DNA from: Candidatus Scatomonas pullistercoris
GTDB lineage: Bacteria; Bacillota; Clostridia; Lachnospirales; Lachnospiraceae
Direction: 5' to 3'
Assembly: GCA_018713515.1 (NCBI GenBank)
Contig: DVOO01000003.1
Coordinates: forward strand, 62,001 to 126,000
DNA length: 64,000 nucleotides
The notes below the pieces were generated by a model. That model saw only the letters and a program-made list of their open reading frames with translations. It had not been told where the DNA came from and ran no database searches. A program made the translations under genes and the position numbers. The first letter of the stretch is position 1. Each line of letters opens with the position of its first letter. Below, piece by piece: positions 54,140-57,434 of this stretch.

Positions 54140-54679
54140 TTACTTTCCTTCCTTTAAAAATATGTCTTTTATATAACGGAGCGTCTTTTTCTCCCCTTTT
54201 TCCGCCAGCATGCCCAGCAGAAATTCCAGCTGCGCCTTCGTCTCCTCGTGGACAAACCAGAGATGTCCCCGCCCCCGCATATAATAATCATAGGGCGCCC
54301 GGTCCGTATAGGCTTTTCCCAGATATACCCGGGAAGCGCTGATCCGGTCCATGATCATCTCCGCCACATATTTTCTTGGCACCTGCACTCCCTGGATAAC
54401 TGTGTCGCAGCCAATGCCGTAATCAATCCAGTACTCAAAATGGTGTTTATTTCTCCCTTTATGGTGAAGCCAGGCCAGCGAAACGCCTGTGTCTTCCCTC
54501 TCCGCATTATTTGGACTTCTGTTTCCCTGCCAGTACCGGCATCCCTTTGAAAATTCTGTCCAGGAATATTTGGACAGATCATGGGCCAGCCCCTGCCGGT
54601 ACAGACCGATCCGGAAACAATAACGCATCACCAGCAGCTTATGGCTGGTGATGGTTTTAAAATGCCTCCATATATGCAT
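54140..54679 (-). CDS. DUF5662 family protein
   Basis: 179 residues, His- and Trp-rich. HKLLVMRYCFRIGLYRQGLA (about 13-32), then HDLSKYSWTEF, LAWLHHKGRNKHHFEYW (about 67-83) and HLWFVHEETKAQLEFLL are conserved features of this Firmicute family of unknown function. The repeated His/Asp pattern (HD, HHKGRNKHH) suggests a metal-binding, HD-like helical enzyme; that is inference. It starts three bases after the GH13 gene stops. Confidence 0.8.
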   Translation of the reverse strand: MHIWRHFKTITSHKLLVMRYCFRIGLYRQGLAHDLSKYSWTEFSKGCRYWQGNRSPNNAEREDTGVSLAWLHHKGRNKHHFEYWIDYGIGCDTVIQGVQVPRKYVAEMIMDRISASRVYLGKAYTDRAPYDYYMRGRGHLWFVHEETKAQLEFLLGMLAEKGEKKTLRYIKDIFLKEGK

Positions 54680-54682
54680 GAT

Positions 54683-56539
54683 TTATTCCTGCTTTCCTAT
54701 CAAGATCATCACAGACCGGCCCTCCGCCATAATTTTCTTCTCCTCGTCCGGACAAACGGCTTTTTCCTTTCCCGTCTCCCAGAAGCCTTCCTCCGATGCC
54801 GTATCGGCCTTCAGATACCAGCGCATCCCCTCAGGCAGATCCGGAAGCGCAAAGGCGTGGGGCTCCCAGTGCATATTGTAAATCATGTAAACCGTGTCAT
54901 CGGGATTTCCGTCCCTGCGGCTTGCGTACGCGCCGCAGTACATGATCCCGAGCCGCCTGCTGCCGTTTTCCAGGTCTGCCACCCAGGCTCTCTGGCTGTG
55001 GTAGGACAGCTCCGGCAGGCCCACATTTTTGTGGTCCGTCTCCTTTAAAGCGCCGACCCGGTGCAGCACCGGGTGCTCCTTACGGAAAGCCAGCGCCTGT
55101 TTTACAAAGGCGGTCATCTGCTCTCCGGCCGCCTGTCTTTTCCAGCTGACCCAGCCCACCTCGTTGTCCTGGCACCAGGCATTGTTATTGCCGCCCTGGG
55201 AATTCAGAAATTCATCGCCGCCATAGATCATGGGGGTCCCCTGGCTGGTCAGCAGAATCAGGAACGCATTCCTGAGCAGGCGGAGACGCAGTTTCCGCAC
55301 GGAATATTTCCGGCTGGGTCCTTCTGTTCCGCAGTTCCATGTATAATTTGTATTGCAGCCGTCCCGGTTATCCTCTCCGTTCTCCTCATTATGCTTCTGC
55401 TCATAGGACACCATGTCCGCCATGGTAAAACCGTCATGGTCCGCAAAGTAATTGATGTACGCGTGGGTATCACTGTTCCGGCGCAGCATCCAGGCTGCCT
55501 GGGCCAGACAGCCCCCGTCGCCCTTCAGAAACTGACGCATGGTCTCCTCATATGCCAGGTTATACTCTCCCAGCACGCGCCTGGACCCGCTCCCTGAGAC
55601 GCAGGCATCTTCGGAAAACCCCAGATACAGAATCTTTGTTTTCCCAAACAGGGGTTCTCTGGCCACAGCCTCCGCCCAGGCGCCATCCCCCAGCAGATGA
55701 AACCCGTCCACATGGTACGTAATCAGCCAGTAGGACAGGATATCAATCACATCCCGGGCTCCGGCGGAGGCGTCAAAATAAAACTCCAGCATACATTCCA
55801 GCCCCGCCTCATGAAGCGCGTCCACCAGATGAGCGAATTCTTCCGCAGGCTTTCCCTCCGCGCTGTAGGCGGCCTTCGGGGCCAGATACAGGGCCTTCTC
55901 ATACCCCCAGTAGTTGATTCTCTCCGGCTGCTTCTCCGTACTTTCCCCGGCGGAAGCTATTCTCTTTTCCCGCGGGGCGGGGAGCTCGTCAAACTCACAG
56001 ACCGGCATCAGAAGCAGCGTGGTAATGCCCAGTTCCTTCAGATACGGAATCTTCTCCTCTATTCCCCGGAAAGTTCCCCGTTTTTTTACCTTCGATGCGC
56101 TCTGCTCCGTAAAGCCCCGCACATGGACTTTATAAATCACGCAGTCTTCATAGGGAATACCCAGGGGATGCGTCTTAAGCTCCGGTTTCCGGATCAGGCG
56201 GCCGCGGACCTGCTCTCCGCCGCGGCGGCCAAAATGCGTTCTGCCGGTAATCTCCAGCGCCCGCGGATCCACCATCCGCCTGCCGTCTATCTGATACCGG
56301 TATTCCCATTCCCCGGGTTCCAGAGGGCTTACATGCACGGCGCCAACCCGGCCGGTCCGCTCCGCTTCCGGAAGAGGAACCTTCAGAGCCGACTTCTGCT
56401 CTCCGGCTCTGTACAGAACCAGAGAGGCCTCCGCGCCTTCCGGAAATACTGCAGCAAAGTTATATCCGCCATTCTCCGGAAATGCCCCGAGCCTCGAGGG
56501 ATTCCCCGCCGTTATTTTCCATTCCGTATTTTCCCGCAT
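54683..56539 (-). CDS. GH13 isoamylase/GlgX-like protein with degenerate active site
   Basis: 618 residues. The N-terminal CBM48-like domain (about 1-105) precedes an alpha-amylase-type barrel with TTLLLMPVCEFDELP (about 196) and FADHDGFTMADMVSYEQKHNEE-type sequence (about 367-387), as in glycogen debranching enzymes. In an active enzyme the strand-4 motif GFRxD holds the nucleophile; here it reads VDGFHLLGDG. The strand-3 motif DVVYNHT is replaced by EFYFDAS. The acid/base glutamate is hard to place. It may be a non-catalytic glycan-binding relative. It lies between xth and DUF5662. Confidence 0.8.
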   Translation of the reverse strand: MRENTEWKITAGNPSRLGAFPENGGYNFAAVFPEGAEASLVLYRAGEQKSALKVPLPEAERTGRVGAVHVSPLEPGEWEYRYQIDGRRMVDPRALEITGRTHFGRRGGEQVRGRLIRKPELKTHPLGIPYEDCVIYKVHVRGFTEQSASKVKKRGTFRGIEEKIPYLKELGITTLLLMPVCEFDELPAPREKRIASAGESTEKQPERINYWGYEKALYLAPKAAYSAEGKPAEEFAHLVDALHEAGLECMLEFYFDASAGARDVIDILSYWLITYHVDGFHLLGDGAWAEAVAREPLFGKTKILYLGFSEDACVSGSGSRRVLGEYNLAYEETMRQFLKGDGGCLAQAAWMLRRNSDTHAYINYFADHDGFTMADMVSYEQKHNEENGEDNRDGCNTNYTWNCGTEGPSRKYSVRKLRLRLLRNAFLILLTSQGTPMIYGGDEFLNSQGGNNNAWCQDNEVGWVSWKRQAAGEQMTAFVKQALAFRKEHPVLHRVGALKETDHKNVGLPELSYHSQRAWVADLENGSRRLGIMYCGAYASRRDGNPDDTVYMIYNMHWEPHAFALPDLPEGMRWYLKADTASEEGFWETGKEKAVCPDEEKKIMAEGRSVMILIGKQE

Positions 56540-56681
56540 GCCACGCCCTCCTTATCTGTTCCGGCATCTTTCAAAATCTTCCGCCTCTTGCGGATGCTTC
56601 TGCCGCGGACAGGGCTTCCCTGTTCCGGCCTGCACCCTGATTTTATCATACCATATTTCTGCTGATAAGGACAGCAAAAAC

Positions 56682-57434
56682 TCAGATGTTCAGATCCAGT
56701 TCCACCGGGCAATGATCCGATCCCATGATCTGTGTGTGTATTTTTGCATCCTCCAGCTTGTCTTTCAGCGCTTCCGAGATCAGGAAATAGTCAATCCGCC
56801 AACCTGCGTTCTTCTCCCGGGCCCGGAAGCGGTAGGACCACCAGGAATACTCAATCTTTTCCGGATACAGGAAGCGGTAGGTATCAATAAAGCCGCTGTC
56901 CAGAAGCCTGGAAAATTTTTCTCGTTCCTGATCTGTAAAGCCGGCATTCTTCCGGTTGGTTTTCGGATTCTTCAGATCTATCTCACAGTGCGCCACATTC
57001 AGATCCCCGCAGACAGCCACCGGCTTCTTCTCTTCCAGCGTTTTCAGGTAGGCCAGGAAATCCTCCTCCCATTTCATCCGGTAGTCCAGCCGGGCCAGTC
57101 CGTCCTGGGAATTGGGCGTGTAGACAGTCACCAGGTAAAACGGTTCATACTCCAGAGTAATCACTCTCCCCTCCCGGTCATGCTCCTCCCTGCCTATCCC
57201 ATAATGAACAGAAAGAGGATCCAGCCTGGAAAAAACCGCCGTTCCCGAATACCCTTTTTTTTCGGCATAATTCCAGTACTGGCGATAGCCCTCTGTGGGG
57301 AGCTCAATCTGTCCCTCCTGCAGCTTTGTCTCCTGAACGCAGAAAATATCCGCGTCCGCCTCCCGGAAATAATCCAGGAACCCTTTTCCAACACAGGCTC
57401 TCAGCCCGTTTACATTCCATGAAATCAGCTTCAT
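56682..57434 (-). CDS. xth: Exodeoxyribonuclease III
   Basis: 250 residues of the endonuclease/exonuclease/phosphatase fold. The metal-binding motifs are [16 protein letters not shown] (about 4-19), [11 protein letters not shown] (about 33-43), [14 protein letters not shown] (about 141-154) and [10 protein letters not shown] (about 238-247). It cuts at abasic sites and repairs 3' ends, complementing MutM upstream in function. It follows the decarboxylase gene by 14 bases. Confidence 0.95.

Follow-up and report, generated by a model that had tools for sequence, protein, structure and literature searches.

The window, by which we mean the whole 64,000-nucleotide stretch of DNA that was analysed, encodes a 618-amino-acid protein that is, with strong support, a GlgX/isoamylase-type relative of the GH13 enzymes lacking a catalytic centre. 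A preliminary description of this gene had suggested such a loss from two unusual motifs at strands 3 and 4. Our analysis bears out that claim and shows that it understated the change, since the acid/base Glu is lost and two loops are deleted as well. The same dead copy is carried by most genera of the family to which the window belongs, where it is kept under purifying selection.

Loss of the catalytic centre

The open reading frame starts with an ATG at 56539 on the minus strand, and its features are collected in Table 1. The best NCBIfam model for the protein was TIGR02100 (GlgX), with 321.3 bits, which is half of the curated cut-off of 640.9, and a six-frame search of the protein's own genome gave nothing that reached this cut-off. 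Pfam assigned Alpha-amylase with 38 bits, and by sequence the closest solved relatives were TreX/GlgX and the plant and algal ISA1. Of the CBM48-like domain described earlier, what stands is a beta-domain at the N-terminus, seen in the model and in the alignment with GlgX/ISA chains; a Pfam CBM48 match to the protein was absent at E<=1, a range in which the program filters drop most matches above 0.1.

Table 1. Features of the dead GlgX-like gene and its neighbours (positions in the window; residue numbers of the 618-amino-acid protein unless stated)
Feature	Position	Strand	Basis
Catalytically dead GlgX/isoamylase-type protein P0001, 618 aa	54683..56539	minus	ORF, TIGR02100 score, structure model
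Shine-Dalgarno-like AAGGAGG, 7 bases before the ATG	56547..56553 (56553-56547)	minus	sequence
Beta-domain at the N-terminus (residues 8-114), where GlgX has its N-domain	56198..56518	minus	model secondary structure and GlgX/ISA chain alignment
W211-G-Y213 (E. coli W219, Y221), -1 subsite residues, retained	55901..55909	minus	alignment; S. venezuelae contacts
Region I remnant EFYFDAS (252-258) replacing D-V-V-F-N-H-T; following loop shortened	55766..55786	minus	sequence alignment
Region II remnant GFHLLGDG (279-286); the deletion takes out the nucleophile Asp and some 14 residues	55682..55705	minus	alignment
Leu306 at the acid/base Glu position	55622..55624	minus	alignment to E. coli GlgX
Region IV HDGFT (368-372), still present in this protein	55424..55438	minus	alignment
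Strand 7 loop KHNEENGEDNRDGCNTNYTWNCGTEG (382-407), retained GlgX signature, Glu389 = E. coli E463	55319..55396	minus	alignment
Strand 8 loop GDEFLNSQGGNNNAWCQDN (441-459), retained, Asn453 and Trp455 = E. coli N527, Y529	55163..55219	minus	alignment
DUF5662 gene, a conserved neighbour separated by 3 bases on the downstream side	54140..54679	minus	Pfam PF18907
Exodeoxyribonuclease III-like gene (Pfam Exo_endo_phos), upstream	56682..57434	minus	Pfam

With E. coli K-12 GlgX as the residue reference, a single member of the catalytic triad was found to be present, namely D443, which aligns with Asp369. The nucleophile D336 is deleted (an ungapped reading would put Leu283 in its place), the acid/base E371 aligns with Leu306, and the Asn-His pair of region I is gone. 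In the structure model the remnant EFYFDAS lies on and after barrel strand 3 (residues 248-254) and GFHLLGDG on and after strand 4 (279-283), so that the confident model agrees with the places proposed for these motifs in the preliminary description. Two deletions are common to all 125 members that were aligned first: regions I and II are 25-29 residues apart (median 26) as compared with 70-72 in GlgX (median 70), and regions II and III 24-25 residues (median 25) as compared with 37-39 (median 39).

Members were read as sets of 105, then 125, then 229 distinct sequences (233 aligned rows less 4 duplicates), plus 11 more; the first 125 are a non-random choice made up of the closest 80 of 560, relatives, and 20 picked as long or low-scoring. 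The nucleophile column of the 229 members shows a gap in 228, Asn in one and Asp in none, and Asp is also absent at the aligned position in 11/11 further members, giving 0/240 in total. Nucleophile and acid/base Glu together were kept by 0/229, while all 18 motif-intact GlgX controls, E. coli included, retain the three catalytic residues. The number of members with the acid/base Glu depends on the alignment, because this column is a gap in 33/229, the later members having been added to a fixed alignment. An intact Asp and Glu were looked for both by sequence alignment and by comparison of the whole fold with GlgX and isoamylase, and were not found. The HDGFT motif, reported earlier as kept, is indeed present in this member but not generally so across members, where its Asp place holds Asp in 91/229 and Asn in 91/229.

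Retained residues and fold

The structure model, built from 62 sequences (pLDDT 89.9, pTM 0.92), has the three-domain fold of GH13_11, and its best fold matches were ISA1, E. coli GlgX and TreX (Z 41.6). Rice ISA1 matched with a Z of 47.0 and an rmsd of 2.4 over 577 residues, and E. coli GlgX with a Z of 43.3 and an rmsd of 2.7 over 540 residues; both matches are nearly full-length. With GlgX and TreX (CAZy GH13_11, TIGR02100) the protein has in common the whole fold, the three domains and the signature loops of strands 7 and 8, but it differs from them by the missing nucleophile, acid/base residue and two loops, and by the halved TIGR02100 score.

To describe which parts were retained, we took the 136 positions that are invariant in 17 motif-intact GlgX and scored them in 125 dead copies. 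Fifty-four were kept in at least 90% of the copies and 34 in fewer than 10%. The positions of the latter class comprise 23/32 of those around regions I-II and 7/23 of those around region III (30/55 together); in the segment that runs from region IV to the end of the strand 8 loop, 0/37 were lost to this degree and 27 were kept. As described in passages of PMC9530166, S. venezuelae GlgX in complex with acarbose touches the -1 sugar through W222, Y224, H271, D342, E378, W380 and H449, and contacts the remaining sugars through R212, E470, N534 and Y536. Transferring these contacts to E. coli numbering by inferred number offsets, we found W222 (E. coli W219) kept in 228/229 members, Y224 (Y221) present as Tyr or Phe in 229/229, E470 (E463) kept in 210/229, N534 (N527) in 229/229, and Tyr or Trp at position 536 (529) in 229/229. 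H271 (H266) and D342 are lost in members and E378 is mostly lost; W380 (W373), in 53/229, and H449 (H442), in 80/229, are partly kept. The outer sugar contact R212 had no assignable place in the members' alignment. Such a pattern is expected of a groove that may hold a chain but is unable to cut it. Because the sugar-contacting residues outside the cleavage core are mostly retained, binding of alpha-glucan by the protein is plausible from its sequence. Of the non-catalytic, glycan-binding relative proposed in the preliminary description, the catalytic loss is strongly supported and the glycan binding plausible; the alternative suggestion of a regulatory role is speculative.

In the model the retained loops of strands 7 and 8, which are the two best conserved ones, have a lower confidence, 61-74 in their cores, and might be loops that become ordered upon ligand binding. 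At E. coli position 463, 11/17 motif-intact GlgX have Trp and 109/125 dead copies have Glu; the Glu of the dead copies may be the older state.

Distribution, history and gene neighbourhood

We surveyed 200 genera of the family, called Lachnospiraceae from the names of relatives, with one genome of at least 90% completeness for each. Searching these related genomes for the same changes revealed the dead copy in 161/200 genera; all 161 (22 + 20 + 108 + 11 by origin) were read as sequence, and the nucleophile is missing from the aligned position in 161/161. Motif-intact GlgX (E<=1e-150) was rarer, occurring in 62/200: 58 genera have both, 103 the dead copy without GlgX, 4 GlgX only and 35 neither, with matches considered down to E 1e-40 for these 35. 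Type I pullulanase (E<=1e-110) was found in 45/200 genera and was not associated with the dead copy (39/161 vs 6/39, p 0.29). At these two thresholds the dead copy is unaccompanied by GlgX or type I pullulanase in 76/200 genera, the window's own among them. Co-occurrence of the dead copy with glycogen metabolism gives no contrast, because GlgA is present in 198/200. A scan of species genomes yielded 560 relatives, and the best-scoring 80 were taken further; records bearing a name include Blautia, Fusicatenibacter, Eubacterium and Lachnospiraceae bacterium. Among 61 related genomes, 37 gave a match of some kind at E<=0.001. In two genomes of the window's genus the protein is identical to that of two Candidatus Scatomonas records, so that the window probably derives from this genus. 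In 392 genomes of the class, a search at E<=1e-66, a threshold that more distant dead copies would escape, gave two matches outside the family, and both were motif-intact.

In the window's own genome we found GlgA, two GlgB-like proteins and further members of GH13, among them an oligo-1,6-glucosidase-like protein of 559 aa; the GlgB-like proteins and the last-named protein were identified by reading their sequences. It gave no GlgX over the cut-off, no type I pullulanase and no GDE_C (PF06202) match. The GlgB-like branching enzymes are located on contigs C11 and C8 (L162:5858-7774 and L163:5393-7699). On contig C31 of the same genome a 188-aa ORF (L165:6067-6633) has a start that by eye resembles a sugar phosphotransferase EIIB domain and an end resembling the C-terminal portion of a GH13 catalytic domain, and looks like two genes fused via a deletion or an assembly error.

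In a tree of 99 rows, obtained by a quick search without bootstrap and with three long branches flagged, the 82 sampled dead copies formed one side of a branch with an SH-aLRT of 100, opposite 17 motif-intact GlgX, and the group adjoining them consists of 13 motif-intact GlgX (11 of this family and 2 others). The catalytic centre was probably lost once, near the base of the window's family. Of 54 candidate pairs we took the 30 closest, and these gave a dN/dS of 0.036-0.171, with several dS values above 1; the dead-copy protein is under purifying selection, i.e. constrained.

Among homologous loci with enough flank, a DUF5662 gene follows in the same orientation at a distance of no more than 100 bases in 81/122 and is missing from the fetched stretch in 32/122, and the exonuclease III gene adjoins upstream in 52/117. 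DUF5662 occurs in 171/200 genera, and its co-occurrence with the dead copy (140 genera with both, 21 with the dead copy alone, 31 with DUF5662 alone and 8 with neither) was not significant (p 0.31), so we rejected it as an obligate partner. The DUF5662 protein, possibly a metal-binding one, has conserved His/Asp/Asn-rich motifs (HDLSKYS; HHKGRNKHH-EYW). Its model is mostly helical (pLDDT 86.9) and matched nothing in the PDB at E<=0.001; the weak structure matches to HD-type hydrolases and ferritins do not amount to evidence, and the open-access literature yielded no mention of DUF5662. With E. coli queries, relatives of glgP, glgA, glgC and glgB were absent from 124/125 dead-copy loci, and a glycogen operon around the dead copy was rejected in view of a single GlgB-like ORF in the 125 loci. 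The missing operon says little, because motif-intact GlgX loci are equally poor in glycogen genes (glgP in 1/16).

Possible functions and their meaning

A known isoamylase that does not cleave is plant ISA2, a paralogue whose catalytic residues, the nucleophile included, were lost in an ancestor and which selection has conserved; glucan-binding sites are the proposed means by which its complexes act (both from passages of PMC12510319). The dead copy is like ISA2 in having lost the GH13 catalytic residues with the nucleophile and in being a paralogue retained under selection. However, ISA2 has an extra N-terminal beta-sandwich before CBM48, which is absent here, the domain that begins at residue 8 being the one that aligns with the N-domain of ISA1/GlgX, and it has ISA1 as partner, whereas the dead copy is without a general active partner (GlgX unmatched in 103/161 genera). 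Because the family profile gives 380 bits for ISA1 and a much lower 209 bits for ISA2, the dead GlgX family likely arose independently of plant ISA2; the 99-row tree contained no ISA2. The dead-copy family is not ISA2 itself but a bacterial form of non-catalytic isoamylase. Another comparison is offered by GlgD, the regulatory subunit beside the catalytic GlgC in the bacterial glycogen pathway according to part of a review (PMC10395257). The likeness lies in a bacterial glycogen-pathway subunit that is described as regulatory beside a catalytic partner. GlgD has another fold and belongs to another step of the pathway. In the open-access literature we found neither a bacterial dead GlgX nor GlgX treated as a pseudoenzyme; "catalytically inactive" GlgX led only to maize ISA and Chlamydia ClpC contexts, and no glycoside hydrolase pseudoenzyme of Lachnospiraceae was found.

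We lean towards the view that the protein is a pseudo-GlgX, a debranching-enzyme paralogue in which catalysis was lost once and which has been kept as a non-hydrolytic, putative alpha-glucan-binding protein. A paralogue of the glycogen debranching enzyme would have lost its catalytic centre and remained as a non-hydrolytic protein, which would bind short alpha-1,4-glucan chains or branch ends via the retained loops of strands 2, 7 and 8 and the N-terminal domain. Once bound, it may shield, tether or organise glycogen, or may modulate glycogen-building and -degrading enzymes, similarly to what is proposed for ISA2 and plant starch. Against binding it can be held that the retained loops could serve folding alone, that the other -1 contacts are lost (H266) or partial (W373, H442), that the two retained loops are modelled less confidently, and that conservation is lowest in the N-terminal domain (mean top-residue share 0.41), which is odd for a carbohydrate-binding domain under selection. 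The more specific proposal that the family is an independently arisen bacterial counterpart of ISA2, acting as a lone glycogen-binding organiser or brake in about four fifths of the family's genera, we regard as having somewhat less than an even chance.

A role apart from glycans, for example as a protein scaffold with the operon neighbour DUF5662, would fit the frequent adjacency of DUF5662 and exonuclease III genes and the near lack of glycogen-gene neighbours, but it leaves the retention of sugar-contact residues unexplained, and the 32 loci without DUF5662 in the fetched stretch and a co-occurrence that does not exceed expectation speak against it; we hold it to be unlikely. We think it distinctly unlikely that the protein is a regulatory subunit that joins the cell's own catalytic GlgX in a heteromer, in the manner of ISA2 and ISA1, although the plant ISA1-ISA2 heteromer is a solved precedent (passages of PMC3787081) and motif-intact GlgX is commoner in genera with the dead copy (58/161 vs 4/39, Fisher p 0.0017, uncorrected for ancestry). 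The extra N-terminal domain of ISA2 is absent, and such a heteromer as the universal mode is rejected because 103/161 dead-copy genera, that of the window included, have no GlgX match at E<=1e-150; 76 of these 103 also lack type I pullulanase at E<=1e-110.

Could the protein still be catalytically active, either through acidic residues that have moved or through another chemistry? The region IV Asp in 91/229 members, an acidic residue 252 in 84% (Glu in the 618-aa protein, where the enzyme has the region I Asp) and the 76 genera, the window's own among them, that at the thresholds used have no other GlgX- or type I pullulanase-like debrancher would suit this idea. A conserved acidic residue was sought near strands 3-5 and none was found in strands 4-5, the top share being 0.42 (positions 281-292 and 303-315). 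Two of the 229 members (L026 and L267) have Asp at the nucleophile place in an ungapped reading, but they are without the region I pair and the region III Glu, and the own genome has other GH13 proteins, such as the 559-aa one; continued catalysis therefore appears very improbable to us. That the gene is merely a decaying pseudogene, for which the loss of the catalytic residues might be taken to speak, is contradicted by the dN/dS values, by the prevalence of the gene and by reading frames that stay open over a similar length in most of the 161 genera (contig ends cut a few), and we give it practically no weight.

For the pseudo-GlgX that we favour, there are consequences for how genomes of this family are read. 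Dead-copy homologues could easily pass as glycogen debranching enzymes in counts, and part of a review lists two glgX homologues for Blautia obeum (PMC10395257). The debranching capacity of gut Lachnospiraceae may be overstated, because dead copies could be counted as debranching enzymes. The 76/200 genera with the dead copy and without GlgX or type I pullulanase at our thresholds raise the question of how their glycogen branches are opened. The family offers a bacterial, genetically simple setting for the function of non-catalytic isoamylases, a question shared with plant ISA2. If it is indeed an independent bacterial counterpart of ISA2, convergent loss of catalysis in the isoamylase fold would be a general way of controlling branched glucans; in this large gut family the dead isoamylase outnumbers its motif-intact counterpart.
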